From positions 4,614,898 through 4,678,897 of the forward strand of contig ML133383.1 in NCBI GenBank assembly GCA_003864495.1: DNA of 64,000 nt, in the 5' to 3' direction. The position numbers and the translations under genes were made by a program. This DNA is from Nemopilema nomurai. Taxonomy: Eukaryota > Cnidaria > Scyphozoa > Rhizostomeae > Rhizostomatidae. Below are positions 51,840 through 64,000 of the stretch, piece after piece (positions within the stretch are counted from its first letter, which is position 1; each line of letters opens with the position of its first letter). Under the pieces are notes generated by a model. It was not told the origin of the DNA and made no database searches. It worked only from the letters and a program-made list of their open reading frames with translations.

Positions 51840-54800
51840 CTAGCCGTTGGATCAGCTGGTGAGAAAAAGAGGGAACTCTCATCAGACCAAACCTTGCCCT
51901 CCTGTCACTACAAACAGATACAATTATTTGCATTGGATAATGATAACATACATGAACAACGTTTGGTGAGAGAAGGTGCATGGGTATCTGGAAAAGTAAA
52001 TGGTTTTCAAGTGGACTTCATGCTGGATACTGGAGCAGCGGTGACGGTGGTGAGCAAAGAGGTTTTTGACCAGGCTTTTCCAGAGGCCAATCTACAAAAA
52101 TCAAATGTACAACTCGTTTCAGCTAGTGGTGACCCTTTGAAAGTGATTGGAAAGACGGAAATGATACTGGACCTTGGCCATCTTCAAGTGACATTTCCTG
52201 TAACGGTCATAGACAATTTCAGATTTCAGTGTCTCCTTGGCAACGATTTCATGGAAAAGCATGGCCTACGTATTCAGTATGACACGAAGACTGTTGTGTT
52301 TAGCGATGGAAAATGTGTACCTTTCTTTCAACTGGCGGGAAAAGATCCGCATTCTTGTGTACAGATGTGCTGGTGCCCCCTGAGCGAGCTATGGTGATAC
52401 AAGCCAAAATAAATGGAGATGAAGAAGGACTGCTCCTGTTTGCTGAGAGACAACCAGGAAAATCAACAACAAAGATCCACGTGGCAAGTGTGCTGACAAA
52501 ATGTAGAAAAAACGGAAGAGTAGCACTTGAGATTATGAATGCAACAAAGAGTCCAGTTCAACTGAAGCAAGGAGATGAAATGGCAGAGTTGGAACTTTTC
52601 AGGAGATCAAAGCAGAACAAGTCAAGGACAAAACAATGACAGTGATAAGACCTTCTGATCTGAACATTGGGCATCTCTCCACAGAAGAACAACAACATTT
52701 GTGCCATGTTTTAAACGAAAGTGGAGTTGTTGGTCAGACAAAACTTGGACGAACCACGGTGATGGAACACAGTATCGACACTGGTTCTGCTTCTCCAATA
52801 AAGCAAAGACCATATCGGGTACCAGAAACAAAGCGAAAGATCATAGAAGAAGAAGTACAAAAGATGCTAGTTGCAGAGATCATAAAGCCTTCAAAAAGTC
52901 CATGGTCCTCTCCAGTTGTTTTGGTCACAAAACCTGATGGAACAGCAAGATTTTGTGTGGATTACAGAAAATTGAATGCAGTGACAAAGAAGGATGCATA
53001 CCCTATTCCAAGGATTGATGACACCCTTGATGCACTTGGCAAAGCGAAGTTTTTCACCACATTGGATCTGGAAAGCGGATACTGGCAAATCCCAATGAAA
53101 GATGAAGATAAGGAAAAGACTGCATTTTCGACTTCACAGGGGCATTGGGAATTTCAGACCATGCCATTTGGTGTCGTCAATGGACCAGCTTGCTTCCAGA
53201 GGCTGATGAACTACGTTCTAACAGGACTTCATTGGACACACTGTCTAGTGTATTTAGATGATATCATCATCTTCTCAAGAACATTTGAAGAGCACATGGA
53301 TCGACTGAAAACTGTTCTTAGCAGACTCAGGAAGGCAGGCTTAACGTTGAAACCCCGCAAGTGTCAGTGGGTACAAAGAAGCGTCAAATATCTTGGACAT
53401 ATCATTTCAGAGGATGGAATACGACCTGATTCAGCTAAGATCAAGGCAGTAGAAGACTTTCCGGCTCCTACCAGCAGGACATTAGTAAAGAAGTTCCTTG
53501 GTATGACTTCCTACTACAGACGTTTTGTGCCCAATTATGCAAGCATCGTGAAGCCACTTACACAACTAACAAAAACACGTGGACAGCCTAAGATATTCCA
53601 GTGGAATGAAGAGGCACAAAGAGCATTTGAGCATCTGAAAATGTCCTTGCTTACCGAACCTGTCCTTCGACTACCAGATTTTGATCGAAATTTTGTGGTT
53701 TATACTGATGCAAGCGACTATGGCCTGGGAGCAGTGTTGGCGCAAAACTTTGTCGATGGCGAAGCAGTGGTAGCATATGCAAGCAGACAGCTGTCAAGTA
53801 GCGAAAGGAATTATTCAACGATTCAGAAAGAATGCTTGGCGATCGTATGGGCGTTACAGTATTTCCACCATTATCTGTTCGGAAGAACATTTGTTATTGT
53901 GACGGACCATCGACCCCTCAAATGGTTTGCAAACAATGAAGCCAAAGAGTGCCAGATGGAAAGATGGATGTGTGACCTGCAAGCCTATTCTTTTGAGGTG
54001 AAGCACAGACCTGGAAAATGCAATGGTAACGCTGACTTCTTATCGAGATGTCCTGTTGAAGAAACGAAGGTGGAAGTTGCAGCCATTTCAGCAAAAGATG
54101 TCATGAGCAGCCAAGAAGCGGACGAAGAGTGTGCAGAAATCATGTATCGTTTACGTAATGGCGATAATCACCCACAAGCAGACGGGAGTGAGCCAGAAGA
54201 ACACAAGAATCAATATGTCATTGAAGACGGCGTACTGTACCATTTATGGGCTCCTGTCCGGAAGGGGAAACAGTTACGAGTGAGAAAACAGCTGGTTGTG
54301 CCAAAGGCGGAAAAAGGGAAGATTCTTGTCCAGAACCACGAGGAAGCTGCACATCCAAGATTTCAGAGAATGTTCGCAAGAATAAGGCAGGCCTACTTCT
54401 GGAAAAGTATGAAGAGGGACATCAGTAGACATTTACAGAATTGCTCGCTCTGTGCACAAAGAAAAGAACCAAAGAACAGAACGCATGCACCACTGAAACC
54501 AATTGAAGTATTTGGACCACTGGAACTTGTTGGAATCGATTATGTTGGACCGCTACCAGTAACAACAAGTGGTAACAAGTAGTCCTTACTATGCAAGACC
54601 AATTCTCAAGATGGCCAGCTGCTTATGCCGTTCCAGAAATAAGTGCTGAGACGACAGTAAAATGCATTGAAAAGTTTGCAGGGGATTATGGCTACCCATG
54701 TACAATCTTATCTGATCGTGGGTCAAATTTCATGTCATCTACATTTAAAAGAGCTTGTAAGAAGATGGGAGTTCGGTTGAAAAACACCTCACCATATCGG

Positions 54801-55538
54801 CCACAATGTAATGGCATGACAGAGAGGTTCAATGGGACCCTGAAAACTGCATTGGCAATGTATACGAACAGCAAGAAAGATGACTGGGACGAGCATTTAA
54901 GAGACATTGTATTGGCTTATAGGACAACCCCACATTCGATTACAAAAGAAACACCTGCGTTCCTAATGACCGGCAGGGAATTCAACGTGGCGCCAGGAGC
55001 AATGAGACCTCCAACTCGGATGTATTCCACAGATTTTGTAAATGAGCGAGAAAATGCACTGAGGGAAGCATATACTCTGGTCAGAGAGCTGAATCATAAA
55101 GAAAAAGAGCGACAGAAAATTGTTCATGATAAAAGAGTCACAGCTGAAGATCACCAGTATTCAGTTGGCGATATGGTGTATTTAAAGAACCATGATAAAA
55201 GGCAAAGTACGGGTTTAAATCTGCAACATTGGCTTGGACCATATAAAATACAACGTGTCATATCAAGCGAGAATGTCGAGTTAGATTTGAAGGATTCCAG
55301 AAGGAACCGGATTGTGCACGTGAATCAACTGAAAAGGTGCACAATGGAGCAGATGGACAAGGTCAAATACAGAGTCAGGACGGTCTTGGACAAGATGAGA
55401 CAGAGAAACCAAAAGGGAAGATTGGAAACAAAGTTTTTCGTCGAGCTAGATGATGGTGAGACCTTATGGGTACCGTCAGAAAGTGTAGCAGACCGATTGA
55501 TCGAAGAGTTTGAACAGTCCTTGAATGTAAAGAAATAG
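51840..55538 (+). pseudogene. pol: Pol of the Gypsy element, frame-broken
   Basis: Domains in order. Aspartic protease with LDTGAA (active-site DTGA at 52,026-52,037). Reverse transcriptase with FCVDYRKLNAVT, TTLDLESGYWQI and the catalytic YLDD at 53,251-53,262. RNase H with YTDASDYGLGAVLA near 53,701 and VTDHRPLKWF. Integrase with an H-x4-H...CSLC zinc motif near 54,340-54,460, then the first Asp in GIDYVGPL, the second in LSDRGSNF, and the Glu in MTERFNGTL at 54,822. The C-terminus has a GPY/F-like module (WLGPYKIQRV) and a chromodomain-like tail ending DDGETLWVPSE. Frame changes lie near 52,365, 52,605 and 54,575. The reverse transcriptase-RNase H part (52,636-54,582) is one long open frame. 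Confidence 0.9.
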
Positions 55539-56533: not shown

Positions 56534-57199
56534 TGCGAATTTTTCGCCGCGAATGCCCAAAAAATATGCTCAGAAGTGGAGATTAGAAAATTCGCAGTGA
56601 ATGGTTTCTACTTTTTCGCAGCGAATAATTCGCCTTGTAAAATAAACCAATCAGAACAGCAATCGAAGACAGCTGACATAAACCCAACTAGTGAACAAGA
56701 GAAAAACACTCTTTTGACAACAAATCTTTGTCGTCTCTTGACGTGAAGACATGGGAAAGAAAGGGCTAGGCCGAATGGTGCTATGCAATGTAAACATATC
56801 TATATCAAAAGTATGCAAAACGACAGAAAACTACGCAGTGGTTCAAACAACAACATGGGAGAATAATGAGTAGCCTATGACTAGGCAGCAGAAATCCCGC
56901 ACCTATAACATAAACAATGGAAGGGGACGTTTCTAGCAACAGGCAATGCCATGACGCGGGGCTTATGACGTACGAACAAGAACTATGCCACAGTACCGCT
57001 TTCTTTGCTTTTTTGCTCGCTTTTTCAACAAATTAGCTTTAAGATTATAAGCTTTTTTAATAAAAACAATCTTCGAACAGACGCTATTTTCTTTTGCATT
57101 ATTCGCGGCGAATTCGCACAAGAAATTCTGCTAGTGGAAATTAAACTTCGAATTCGCAGCGAATTCATAGGCAAAAAAATTCGTGGCGAAAAATTCGCA
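56534..57199. mobile_element. MITE-like element with ATTCGC/GCGAAT termini
   Basis: Ends are inverted: TGCGAATTTTTCGCCGCGAA at the left and its near-complement GGCGAAAAATTCGCA at the right. Within about 130 bp of each end the palindromic motif ATTCGC(N)GCGAAT recurs three to four times. No transposase is encoded. The exact boundaries and the target duplication could not be settled. Confidence 0.5.
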
Positions 57200-57339
57200 G
57201 GCTTTACATTTCAGCATAGAGTCAACATGCTTGCGTTTCTGTTAAGAGATGCCGGGCTGTAAAGACCTCGAGTAAGTTGAGTATGCACTTATGAGTGTTT
57301 AGGCTGAAATCTATGGCGCGCATACACCGCCAAAAATAG

Positions 57340-57692
57340 TACTTTCTAAAATTTCACTAACTTTCTAAAAGTTTAGTGATCTTCTAAAAGTTCAGTTGTT
57401 CTGTCTAGTCTTAAAATTTCAGTCATTTCCAAAGTTTCAACCACCGTTCAACATTTTCTAAAATTTCAATTACTTAAACAACGTTTCTAAAATTCCAATC
57501 GCTTGCTCTGCGAGATTTCTAAAATTTCAGTCATGCTAGGTTAGTTCTAATATTGCAACCATTTCTAAAGTTTGAACCCCCGGTCAACATTTCCTAAAAT
57601 TTCAATCACTCTAAAGTTTCAATGGCTTTTCCAAAATTTCAATGGTGAATGTTGACAGCCTCTTCCTGAACTTTGCCAAGCAGCCTCCTTTT
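57340..57692 (+). repeat. Left terminal inverted repeat, iterated motif
   Basis: About 13 degenerate copies of a motif close to YTAAARTTTCARTC at irregular spacing of about 18-40 bp. The last 204 bp (57,489-57,692) match the right end in inverse orientation. The repeat stops 37 bp before the HECT gene's start codon. Confidence 0.85.
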
Positions 57693-57729
57693 CCACCATT
57701 TCCCCGAGAAAGTAAGTGCAGGTGGCAGC

Positions 57730-60700
57730 ATGGCTGACAGGAGGGTGAACGTCGAAGGTGAGCAGAGATTGCGCCAAATCATGGAAATAGCAGAGCGGAT
57801 GTTACAGGATGCTAGCAGTACACGTACAACGACTAGCACTAATGAAAATAGTACTCCTGGCTCAGATTGTTCAAACAGACAAAGTAGCAATTGCAGCGAT
57901 ACGTCAGGATCAACAATCAGCAGCTTCCTTAGGCCCAACAATTCCACATCAGCATCAACTGGACCCGTTCAACAGCAGTTGCTGGTAAGACAGAATTTTA
58001 GAAGTTTATTTGCGCCATACAGCAGGCCACAAGATCAGCGTCAAGGGAGACCTATGCCAAGAAGTGGAAGGGGCATAGGGCGGCGTAGCCAAGGAAAGTC
58101 GCCAGTCAAAGAGACTTGGACACATGACTTTTTTTGTTTATCAAAAACCAATACATCATACCCCCCAGGTCAAAAAGAAAAAATAGGATTAACTGATGCT
58201 GGTTTAGGACGGAAAAAGGTTACCTTCTCGCATGATGGAGATGCTGCTCATGTGGCTAAGCAATTGGAAAAAATTTATCCAAAATTACAAGGATGTGGAG
58301 GTTTTGAGATACTACGATCGCAAGGCGCCAAAGAAACATTGCGATTGCTCATCCCACCCCGTAGTGGATATTCTGTTATATTCCTGAGGGATCTTAGCGG
58401 CCTTGGGTCTGCTTTAGGATACATTAGACCAATACAGATGAACCTTTCCACATCAAAAGTCCCACCACAGGATCCCATGGTAAGTGACCATACAAATTTG
58501 ACAGAGCAATATTTATTTATTGATCAATAATTTGTACTATTTTGACTGCTTGTTGTCATGAACATATACAGAAATAAACCAGTTTGGAATCTTCTGCTTG
58601 CATGACTTTGGTAGATCATCCAAACATTTGCTGATCAACATGTAAAAGGAACACATTGATTTGCTACCTAAATCAGCAAAGGAGACTTTTTATGCAGAGC
58701 TCATTGAAAATCTAAGTAAAAAGATGCACCCCTCTGCTGTACAAAATTAGATTGGCTGTTCTGTTTTACACAATCATACAATTTTTTCTCATATGCTTAC
58801 ATTTATTAAACCATTTCAAGTCCATTTGGTCACCATTGTTAATTGCTATTAATATTTTTTCCAGATGTTTCAATCTATGGAGTCTTACTTTGTAAAATGT
58901 TTAGGCTGCCTTGAAGATATCCCAATAGACCAATTACGAGAGCATCACAAAAAGTGTATCAGCAGCAACAATGAGGAGGTAAATTTTCTATTGAAACATT
59001 CTGTTAGCAGTCAGATGCTGACTTTTATGACAGGCCTATTCCAATCAGTGCAGGGTGGTCACTTTTTTTCACTCTTTTGGTATCACTCCGATGTGTTGAT
59101 ACTCTGATGAGTGTCCGATGAAAGTGTTTCTGCGCAAAAACTAAATTCCATTTCAATTTGCCCCACATTTTTTTGTTTATTTTAGAATTTTTAACTTCTG
59201 TCCATTATGTAAAGTGTCCCTTAATTTATGAAATAGAGATGACTTAAAATAAAATTGATAAAGCAACTCCAAATAAAATCTGTTTGAGTGGTTTTGATTT
59301 CTTCTTTTCTGACCTGAGGATTTTGCAATAATAAACAGTTTCAAATGTCTAAACAACTTAATTTTGTGCTGTTGTTTCTCTTTTGTCAGGAACAACATTC
59401 ACAGTGTGATGAAGATCCGGAAATAAAATGTGAAAATTGTATGTCAGCTGTAAAATTTTCAAATTATGAAATGCACACCCAAGAATGCCTCAGTCTTCAT
59501 GATGCCACTGATATATATTTTCCTGTGGATCCTCAGTGTGGTACATCTACAATTGCTAAATCTGGATCAAAACCTAATGATGCAGTGAAGTCTAATACTG
59601 AATTGAGGGAAGATTATCATTTGCTTGCTCAATCTGCAGGCAAAACTGATTCACCTGAAAATGCTCAATCTCGACCAGATAGTGAAAAATCAATGCCAAA
59701 TAATGCACCATTAAAGGGAGATTCTATATCTAAGCTGATGGAGCTTACAAATTTTTCTGAAGATGATTGTGAAATTTTTCTCAATCAATGTTGCAATGAG
59801 AGCTTTGATGAGGCTGTTGGAAAATTTCTAAAAGATGGATGCCTGTCAACAATTGTTTCAATAATGGCTGGGAAACTTAAAGGTGCTACAAAATTCATCA
59901 AAATATCTGATCCTGAAGAGTCCCTTACAGCAGCACTTGCATATTTCAAGGGTGTTGAATATGCTGAAAACCGACCAATTTCTGTTCATGTGGGCATAGC
60001 AATTGATGCAGGGGGGCCTAAAAGGCAATTTTTTCAAGATGTAATAGACACAGTAATCACAGGAACTGATCTTAGATTATTTGAGGGATGCAATGGCAAA
60101 CTGGTTCCAGTTTCTTCATCAATGACATTGATGTCTAACATTTTGGAGATATTTGGAAGGGTAATTTCTCATTCAGTTGCTGAAGGTGGGCCAGCTTTCC
60201 CATACTTGGCACCACCTATATATTGGTACCTTATTACACAGTCTGTGGAGAAAGCCATGCAGCATGCAACAATACTTGATGCTGCTTCCGCAGGTATCAA
60301 ATATGTACTTGACAAGGTATGACATTATGATACTGGTTGTCTTAAAAAGTTTGGCAGTTTTTAGATTGGGCATGAAGCAATATATACATCTATTCAATAT
60401 CAACATGCCAGTAGAATACAGAGATACCATAAATCCTAGAATTAGCCTCATGCGGGTTTGTTTATTTTGAATATTTTTGGATGGGGGCTTATTTGATGAT
60501 GCTTATTAAAAGTTTGTATTTCAAGGGTGGGGGTTTATAAAAGGGGGGCTCTCTTGAGGGGGTGGTGCCAATTCAAGGATTTACAGCATCTTAGCTATTG
60601 GTGCAGGTGCTTTGGATAGTTCAAAGTTTATTGTGAGACTTGTGTAAACAAAACCTACCCTGTATCAGTTATTTGTTGATTAAATATAAAAACTATAATA

Positions 60701-61870
60701 AATTAATAAACAATAATAAACAATAATAAACATTTAGTGTCTAGAAAAACAATTACTGCCACTGATAGTCATAATATGAGTTTATTTTTCACCACAGATC
60801 CATGGTGCAAATACAAATGCGGAATTTCATCAGGCAATAGTTGACACACAAGTTCAAATTGTTCTTGATGAAAGCCAGTGGGATAGGTCTACCCCCATTC
60901 AGGTAAAAGTTCTGCAAAAAGTCAAAAGTGTGCAAAGTAAAACTCTTTGAAATTGAAATACTTTCAAATAACTTGTTCCTGCCATTTTTGCAGTTTGGAA
61001 GTGACAGGTTTTTCACTCCCTGTAATATATTATTTCTTTCTAGTTGGAGAACAAGCTGACCCTCATCCAATGGCTGTTGCAGTATGATGTTTTAATTAAA
61101 CGTGAAAAGGCTATAAAACACTTCGGGAAGGGCTTGGCAACCCTTGGCCTGCTAAGACATATGCGAAAATTTCCAGAGGAATTTGAATCAATGTTTATTT
61201 GGAGTAGTGAAACACTATCTACAAGTGCAGTCCTTGAAATGCTGGAGCTAGAAAATGAAAACCTTCAAAGTGAATGTGCTCTCATTTGGGACTATTTGCA
61301 AGAATTTGTTTCTGAGTGTGGAGAAGAAGGTATACTTGAAATCCAGACTTAATGTTCTAGACTTGATATTAATGTTCATTTATGAAATTTCAAGAGTACT
61401 TTTCATTGTTAATGACAAAGAAATTGTAGCTATTGCAGATGTAATTCATTGCAGACACTTGACTTGGAGGGTTAAGTTACTGGTTTAAAGCATTTCATAC
61501 CTTATTGGGAATAATAAGAATTCACACAAATAATTTTTGGAAGTGATTTAAAAATCCAGAATTGTTTACATCAGAGGGGTATTGTTTTGTTGTATTTTTA
61601 GTTATGTCTATTGTTAGTGGTATAATGTTACCATCTCATGACTTTTTTTCAGAACTCAAGAACTTTTTGAAATTTCTGACTGGATCTTCAGCATTGCCAA
61701 GCAGGGGCCTTCCAAAAAGATATGTCACTGTATCATTTGTAGATGCTGATGCATTCTTTGTATCCACCTGCTTAATGGAATTACATATTCCTAAGTCCTT
61801 TGCAAACAAGGAAGAATTTGAGACATCACTGCATGCAGCCATTTTATGTGTTGGCTATAACACTTGGTAG
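57730..61870 (+). CDS. HECT-type E3 ubiquitin ligase, transposon-borne, 6 exons, 799 aa
   Basis: Exons 57,730-58,479, 58,865-58,978, 59,390-60,316, 60,798-60,902, 61,044-61,329 and 61,653-61,870 have GT-AG borders and compatible phases and total 2,400 nt with no internal stop. Residues 1-125 are Ser/Thr/Asn-rich. Residues about 130-245 hold a block (WTHDFFCL...GLGRKKVTF) that I know from fish and cnidarian proteins preceding HECT domains. Two zinc fingers share the spacing C-x2-C-x11-H-x3-C (Cys262/265, His277, Cys281; Cys302/305, His317, Cys321), the UBZ4 pattern of RAD18. Residues 400-435 look UBA-like. A HECT domain covers about 452-799: IDAGGPKRQFF matches the N-lobe, and FVSTCLMELHIP carries the expected catalytic Cys767, 32 residues from the end. 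Closest named relatives would be G2E3-like proteins. It probably transfers ubiquitin; its substrate and use to the transposon are unknown. Confidence 0.85.
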
Positions 61871-62065
61871 AAGGACTGGAAACACTGAACCAATATTTGT
61901 TTTTGAACCATTGTAAATGTTTTGTTTTGTTTTGTCTAAAATAGTTTTGTTTGCAAAATTGTTATGTTGAAGACAGAGACTTGATTGCTTGGAAACTTGA
62001 TTTTTAAACTTGAATTGCGTCTGCTGATTTACCTGAAACTAAAATAATTCTGTTCGTATTTTAAC
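61871..62065. other. Convergent intergenic gap
   Basis: 195 bp between the stop codons of the two convergent genes. AT-rich; an AATAAA for the plus-strand gene lies just beyond, at about 62,097, inside the other gene's last exon. Confidence 0.6.
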
Positions 62066-63773
62066 CTAGGTGCTATTAATACATTCAAGTACTTGTGAAT
62101 AAATATCCATCCCCTGAAACTCGCTTTCAGCTAACGGATTTATATCTTGCACTACTTGGAAATTTGTGGGAGCAAAAATTTCAGGAACAAGAATCTCATC
62201 ACTATCATGCAAGTCATCTGTTGGTATTGGACCATCCCAGTCTATGCCATAGTCTTCTTGCTGCAAATAAAGTATATATCATTTATAGTTATATGTTGAT
62301 TGTTTTACTAGTAAAAATAATATATTGAAATTATAAGCTGATGTTTTTTATGTAAGTTGGTGGTTTCATTTTAAACATTGGAGGAAATAACTTTACTTCA
62401 ACCTCACTGTGAAAATCATCTGGGCCCCTGCCTTCCATCAGTCCTTGTACCCACATTTGCAGTGGGGATTTGAAATGCTCCGTAGAAATAGGGCTATTGT
62501 TGAACCCACTTACAAACTGCTGCAGAGATTTGTTTATCCTAGGCAAATACACATAGTGCAGAGCAAACAGGTGTGTTTCTTCAGTTGGAATTAACAATCC
62601 ACTCTCTTCCATGCTACAGAAAAGGTCATAGTACACATGAGTACATCCTGTAAATAAATCACGCCAGAGACGCTCAATTCGCTGATTATGAACACTGCGT
62701 CCTGTGATATGACTGCCACGTTCAGGTCCCCGTAACGGGTGGGTTAGCATGTACATTGCAACATCTACATTCTCCATTCCCTTGTCTGACCTGACTCTTG
62801 AAGGCAATCCAAATTGTTGTACAGCACCATGGAAACTGTTGAATACTGTTTCAGCTCTGTTATTGTTGCTGCAAGTTAGGAAAACAATCATTCTTGTGTA
62901 GCCGTCAATTCCACCATGAAATACAAAACGCCATCTGCAAAAAATAAAAATGAAGTTGTAGGGAATCTATCATTCTTTTGGCAAATCAAAGCACATAATC
63001 TTTATTTACATAATTCGAAAAACCTAATATATTTTTGCATGAATTTTTCACCTTATAAGCTTGTGATTGCCATCTATGTGCCACAAAGCAAGAGGTCCTT
63101 TCACACAATATTTCCGCCGTTTGATAATGGATAAATGCAAAGACCGCAGCATTACACCCTCCGGGTTCACTCTCTTCATTGATGCACGAATCCGTTCTCT
63201 TTGCACAATCTGTCCTCTTGACCTTAATAAACCTGTCATTCGAGTATACCCTGCATTGGGAAATTCATGCATGATATTACCAACAATTGCATCCAGTTCA
63301 GCATCTGAGAGAGTGCTATAGTATGATCGGCTTTGCAATCCATACTTTGCCATTCTTCGCTCAACTGTCCTGGTACTTGTTTCAAGCAACGAGCTTATCA
63401 GCGGAACTCTAAATCCGAGTCCCAAAAGAAAAGACAAGTGATCTTCAGTTATATCAAATTTAGGCCTTCCTTTCTTGCCATTGTAAATAAGATTGCATCT
63501 ACTTTGATCATCATTCAAATCATTTGAAGCCAACAAAGTGGTTGCTTCCCCCAACAGTGGCAAAAGCTGCCCTGTCAGATTTGAAGTTAGGCCAGGAACA
63601 ACACCTTCGTACCTTAAAATTGTATGAATAAGGTAGTCAATCCTAAAATGAATCGAATCTGCCATGTTTTCGTCATTTAATGATGATCTTTCGCAATCAA
63701 TTCTTATTCTTCTGATCATGTTGCAAAGCAAATCAGCAGCGGACCATCGTTGTGGCAGAGAAGCTTCCGCCAT
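62066..63773 (-). CDS. IS3/rve-like DDE transposase, 3 exons, 484 aa
   Basis: Minus-strand exons 63,773-63,052, 62,934-62,397 and 62,260-62,066 (donors AG|GTGAAA and GAA|GTAAAG, acceptors TTTTGCAG and TTTGCAG) give 1,455 nt with no internal stop. Residues about 105-140 resemble a helix-turn-helix (GRPKF...STRTVERRM). Residues about 160-205 ([17 protein letters not shown] then [12 protein letters not shown]) match the HTH_21 segment preceding the catalytic core of IS3 OrfB. The catalytic triad is Asp234 (WHIDGNHK), Asp291 (RSDKGMEN) and Glu328 (NQRIERLW), spaced D-x56-D-x36-E. The last exon carries [10 protein letters not shown], a tail I associate with integrase-core proteins of fish and corals. 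The start codon lies 24 bp inside the right inverted repeat. It probably cuts and pastes the element. Confidence 0.87.
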
Positions 63774-63796
63774 GACTTTCCTATATGCTGGAGCAC

Positions 63797-64000
63797 AAAA
63801 GGAGGCTGCTTGGCAAAGTTCAGGAAGAGGCTATCAACATTCACCATTGAAATTTTGGAAAAGCCACTGAAACTTTAGAGTGATTGAAATTTTAGGAAAT
63901 GTTGACCGGGGGTTCAAACTTTAGAAATGGTTGCAATATTAGAACTAACCTAGCATGACTGAAATTTTAGAAATCTCGCAGAGCAAGCGATTGGAATTTT
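63797..64000 (-). repeat. Right terminal inverted repeat (truncated by window)
   Basis: Inverse complement of 57,489-57,692 with two substitutions. It begins 24 bp upstream of the transposase start codon and continues past the window end. Confidence 0.93.

Follow-up and report, generated by a model that had tools for sequence, protein, structure and literature searches.

Why does a gene for a HECT-type ubiquitin ligase lie next to a transposase gene, inside one pair of inverted repeats, at the right end of a 64,000-nucleotide stretch of the scyphozoan Nemopilema nomurai (contig ML133383.1; this whole stretch, C19:4614898-4678897 of the 213-Mb genome examined, is referred to as the window)? 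We consider it likely, taking the statement as a whole, that the locus is a recently active cut-and-paste transposon of the IS3EU type, and that the convergent HECT ligase is an accessory encoded by the element. The transposon is of a known kind; what sets it apart is the HECT ligase gene beside the transposase.

The element is a DNA transposon of 6,866 bp at window positions 57312-64177, with its final 177 bases beyond the window end. Its features are, in window coordinates:

57306..57311, no strand: left copy of the target-site duplication, GAAATC, 6 bp; the right copy lies immediately past 64177
57312..57692, + strand: left terminal inverted repeat (TIR), 381 bp, starting TATGGCGCGC
57730..58479, + strand: HECT ligase exon 1; residues ~123-250 have a predicted ubiquitin-like beta-grasp arrangement
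58865..58978, + strand: HECT ligase exon 2; CxxC-x11-HxxxC motif at residue 262
59390..60316, + strand: HECT ligase exon 3; initial part of the HECT N-lobe and, at residue 302, the second CxxC-x11-HxxxC motif
60798..60902, + strand: HECT ligase exon 4
61044..61329, + strand: HECT ligase exon 5
61653..61870, + strand: HECT ligase exon 6; C-lobe, catalytic Cys767 and stop codon
62066..62260, - strand: transposase exon 3, with stop codon
62397..62934, - strand: transposase exon 2; bulk of the rva_4 core (D291, E328)
63052..63773, - strand: transposase exon 1; N-terminal part and D234, with an HTH_21-like stretch below the cut-off
63797..64000, - strand: right TIR, 204-bp in-window part; it extends to 64177 (C19:4679074)

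The two TIRs, of 381 bp each, are 98.95% alike when the bases beyond the window are included; within the window, 57489-57692 pairs with 63797-64000 with 2 mismatches in 204. The near-identical inverted repeats reported in a preliminary description of this DNA are therefore real, and so is the element that they bound, although its left edge had been placed at 57340, 28 bp too far inward, and its right edge at 64000, where the window end cuts the element short of its true end at 64177. The termini TATGGCGCGC...GCGCGCCATA (TATGG...CCATA) are found in all three full copies in the genome and have the TA..TA form, and the GAAATC direct repeat flanks the window element exactly on both sides. That this anatomy is real we regard as close to certain. 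The left TIR (57312-57692) is internally repetitive, with TTTCTAAAATTTCA-like units and blocks of ~127 bp that are 76% alike; these units are possible transposase binding sites.

The transposase gene, on the - strand, has 3 exons with GT-AG introns and a product of 484 aa; the borders were read from the sequence, and the 484-aa frame is the longest among those given by 8 donor/acceptor combinations at the last intron. The protein matches Pfam rva_4 (E-value, E, 8.9e-82) and carries the acidic (DDE) triad D234/D291/E328, the first D lying within 100-300 residues of the N-terminus, as in IS3EU; when 16 transposases are aligned, D291 and E328 do not vary and D234 hardly does. One simple pattern revealed no HHCC motif upstream of the DDE core (residues 1-234), and Pfam at E<=1 returned no integrase zinc-binding domain for the transposase. 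With IS3EU/GingerRoot elements the window element shares the TA..TA termini (TATGG..CCATA fits the TAYGG..CCRTA described for rust-fungus IS3EU families; PMC10045372, PMC12730594), the 6-bp duplication, an integrase-like DDE core, the position of the first D at 234 and the absence of the simple HHCC pattern, and it differs from them in having a HECT ligase as second gene. By sequence, then, the element fits the IS3EU superfamily in its termini, its duplication and its transposase core; rva_4 is a Pfam name, whose equation with IS3EU we infer.

The second gene, on the + strand, consists of 6 exons, again with borders taken from the sequence and with GT-AG introns throughout, and its 799-aa product is a predicted HECT E3 ligase. 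The Pfam HECT match covers residues 514-791 (E 9.8e-17, 62 bits vs a curated cut-off of 23.9), and the catalytic Cys767, within STCLMELHIP, is aligned with the Cys of AREL1 (in its TC) and with that of the relatives P0001 and P0140; AREL1 is also the best solved relative of the protein (8e-6). Besides HECT, Pfam at E<=1 lists for this protein a single further match, a weak one to a C2HC zinc finger (0.082); a CUE domain is present in relatives of the ligase. The preliminary description had proposed six- and three-exon genes with full-length frames (799 and 484 aa) and catalytic residues, arranged convergently inside one TIR pair, and at the level of sequence all of this was upheld.

A search of the genome with the TIR gave at least 62 matches. 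Full copies of the element are found at three places (C19, C90 and C96), each with both genes and each with a duplication of its own, which in the orientation of the element reads GAAATC, GTGTTC and TGTTTT, respectively. Over 6.9 kb the three differ by 5 single-base insertions or deletions (4 of them in base runs), one of 2 bases, and 2 small patches; such near-identity indicates that the insertions are young. In none of the three full-length copies do the repeats flank the transposase alone, and HECT exon 3 occurs at 3 loci, all inside the same repeats. The earlier proposal that the HECT gene is part of a transposon is well supported by these three copies with their separate duplications, as well as by the diverged convergent pairs described below.

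Other TIR loci show what else the family contains. For 16 of the other TIR matches the stretch behind them was examined (L042-L057): tblastn at 1e-3 detected no HECT sequence there, and an N-terminal piece of the transposase is present in 15 of the 16 (L043 being without it); at 24 further TIR loci (L015-L038), which partly overlap the places of the former set, the counts are 0/24 for HECT and 23/24 for the transposase. Ends were sought in 29 loci, equal to 28 distinct stretches, 9 of which have no paired ends. Of the 19 members with both ends, 17 are flanked by an exact 6-bp duplication, namely the 3 full copies and 14 short ones; in the other two the duplication has one mismatch (C17) and four mismatches (C31:492119). 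Both genes are thus present in every full copy, whereas the short derivatives examined have the ends and no more than a fragment of the transposase, and no HECT.

Is the association of the two genes older than this family? Searches for the family HECT and for rva_4 were run exon by exon, so that diverged genes could escape. At E<=0.001 there are 6 family HECT loci in the genome, and 5 of these are within 2.5 kb of an rva_4 match, all of them convergent; with even placement a convergent neighbour within 2.5 kb would be expected at ~1e-4 per HECT locus. The HECT genes of C1 and C2 have 35-36% identity to the window family. The one at C1:1864372(-) has a convergent rva_4 at a distance of 2.4 kb; over 123 residues it is 76% identical to the relative P0139, and its identity to the window HECT is 35%. 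The region C2:1.594-1.623 Mb mirrors C1:1.856-1.884 Mb; these probably represent two haplotypes, with the two pairs as alleles. For rva_4 the genome has 25 matches in 18 clusters, or 17 loci if two C2 pieces are counted as one; 12 of the 17 sit on C1, C2 and C45. PF00632 has 76 exon-level matches, the element's own included, and among those outside the family HECT set none was near an rva_4 match, as judged by eye.

Pairs are also found outside this genome. An 8.2-kb contig (L059), assigned in its record to a bacterium symbiotic with the sponge Iophon but probably sponge DNA, has an rva_4 match on the + strand (49% in the best segment) and, convergent with it, a 371-aa HECT frame (tblastn 4.9e-9 at 22% identity; Pfam 28.5 bits vs the cut-off of 23.9, for the C-lobe stretch only; hhalign probability 91%). 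It is one of four sponge-symbiont contigs with rva_4, the other three having little or no flank; on one of these contigs (L060:2489-4212) a retroelement-like frame follows shortly after the rva_4 transposase. In EukProt the nearest relatives of the ligase and of the transposase, gene1014-334_t and gene1015-335_t, have consecutive numbers (identity 66% and 77% as listed, 75% and 85% over aligned columns), and would be neighbouring genes of one proteome. Judged from these sequences, the association between transposase and HECT is older than the window family. The ligase is constant in the window family and only possibly so across the superfamily; the related pairs elsewhere suggest that elements of this kind carry it regularly, and that it is not a stray host gene.

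How might such an element work? The transposase would cut at the TA ends and insert with a 6-bp stagger, and it would also supply the activity that moves the short derivatives in trans. Of the ligase we are less sure; an accessory role is the most likely one, in which it would draw on the host E1 and E2 and act in trans; given the predicted ubiquitin-like domain, the zinc motifs and the CUE domain of its relatives, it probably recognises modified or chromatin-bound proteins. Our leading guess, held at somewhat less than an even chance, is that it marks for destruction a host protein limiting the element, such as a silencing or repair factor.

Several observations weigh against a ligase that matters to the element. 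For 12 of the 17 rva_4 loci the search at E<=0.001 found no family HECT within 10 kb; one of the 12 has a weaker match (E 0.67) at a distance of 7.9 kb, and one, C45:426225, has a 485-aa open frame. Conversely, the 10 kb around the family HECT at C1:2.14 Mb are free of rva_4. The transposase of the C1 pair is in two pieces 5 kb apart, which means that this element has been interrupted or has decayed. No HECT was found in the short flanks of two other rva_4 sponge-symbiont contigs. In the C90 full copy HECT exon 1 is one base short, within a run of C, and in the C96 copy transposase exon 2 has an altered patch with a stop; either may be an assembly error. Moreover, the 3 full copies count as one association, so that the independent associations are 3 or 4. 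Finally, the short derivatives have spread without HECT, from which it follows that HECT is not needed in cis. The rva_4 loci without a family HECT, the short derivatives and the HECT frame broken by one base in one of three full copies are what would be expected if a host HECT gene had been captured once and were carried without benefit as a passive passenger, like the gene fragments of other transposons. We nevertheless regard this explanation as improbable: the spliced HECT frame of the window copy is intact, with Cys767 in place, and convergent pairing has been kept with deeply diverged partners in the window family, in C1/C2 (35-36%) and in L059 (22% HECT identity). Furthermore, in tblastn at 1e-3 the family queries matched none of 8 loci (L001-L008) taken from the 76 PF00632 matches, so that no recent host donor is seen among those 8. 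The presence of catalytic and ubiquitin-type parts, kept with diverged transposases, makes an accessory role likelier than that of a passenger.

An accessory ligase could also be directed at the element's own transposase or transpososome, for turnover, for control of dose or for removal after strand transfer. Many transposases are dose-sensitive, and the genes are convergent wherever the orientation of a pair is readable, as if kept as a unit; on the other hand, the partner transposases differ in sequence and the modules of the ligase family are broad ubiquitin-type ones, which fits either target. We rank this version second, as rather unlikely, though less so than a passenger. The simplest alternative, that of a host gene cluster, chance neighbours or assembly duplicates, could appeal to the other HECT matches in the genome (the 76 exon-level PF00632 matches, with the caveat on the element's own), but HECT lies inside the inverted repeats in all three full copies, the figure of ~1e-4 per locus speaks against chance, and assembly duplicates are contradicted by the three different 6-bp duplications; we give it hardly any credence.

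An accessory gene of the element would have parallels. In fungal IS3EU elements carrying TET genes, an alpha-kinase gene is described opposite the transposase, with the TET/JBP gene between (PMC12730594); the animal element resembles that plan, with a second enzyme gene opposite the transposase, and has a different enzyme. The words 'HECT' and 'ubiquitin' do not occur in the main texts of PMC10045372 and PMC12730594, and among the matches listed in a literature search, which had Repbase outside its scope, none of the titles or abstract openings describes a DNA transposon, IS3EU or other, with a HECT gene, so that an earlier record is possible. The nearest precedent met is the VTD deubiquitinase described for Helentron-type transposons, also a transposon-borne enzyme of the ubiquitin system, which, its authors suggest, may protect transposition proteins from destruction (PMC9741609); unlike the HECT ligase it removes ubiquitin, it is a domain inside the Helitron open reading frame, and its element is a rolling-circle one. 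RAG-like transposons share the plan of two convergent genes, for a transposase and an accessory protein (RAG1L/RAG2L, PMC7204232), which are unrelated to those of this element. A transposon with an E3 ligase of its own would be selfish DNA able to direct protein destruction, the animal equivalent of elements in fungi that carry kinase and TET genes and of helentrons with their deubiquitinases. To our knowledge RAG-like transposons have no HECT, and we know of few transposons with enzymes able to alter host protein levels. The element would be, in addition, a source of compact natural ligases.

The preliminary description had also supposed that expanded families of G2E3-like HECT genes may be transposon copies. 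Here the support is indirect: a Montipora protein (P0158) with the NCBI name 'G2/M phase-specific E3 ubiquitin-protein ligase-like' belongs to the HECT family of the element, and a study of Cottus describes a G2E3 match among unclassified repetitive elements rising in copy number (PMC5638112). In this genome only 6 family loci were found. The likeness of the element's ligase to G2E3-like animal HECT proteins is one of name, as borne by this coral member of the family; when sequences are compared, AREL1 is the best solved relative. G2E3 itself has PHD-like zinc fingers ahead of HECT. A broader and tentative proposal, to which we give slightly less than an even chance, is that of an old IS3EU-type animal lineage, predating the sponge split or spread by transfer, which standardly has a convergent HECT gene, with many coral and fish genes of that NCBI name being its copies and ubiquitylating host restriction factors. 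For annotation the caution is that expanded 'G2E3-like' families in coral and fish may be transposons.

Elsewhere in the window, positions 1-46220 hold repeated units of ~16-20 kb, up to three of them, with ~91-99% identity in matched blocks of at least 1.5 kb and with inner tandem arrays of ~295-334 bp. Just left of the element, at 51840-55538, are Ty3/gypsy-like pol frames (protease, reverse transcriptase and integrase, by eye). A pair of 21-bp inverted repeats (56534-56554 and 57179-57199, 95%, 624 bp apart) ends ~110 bp before the element, and is possibly a small non-autonomous transposon.

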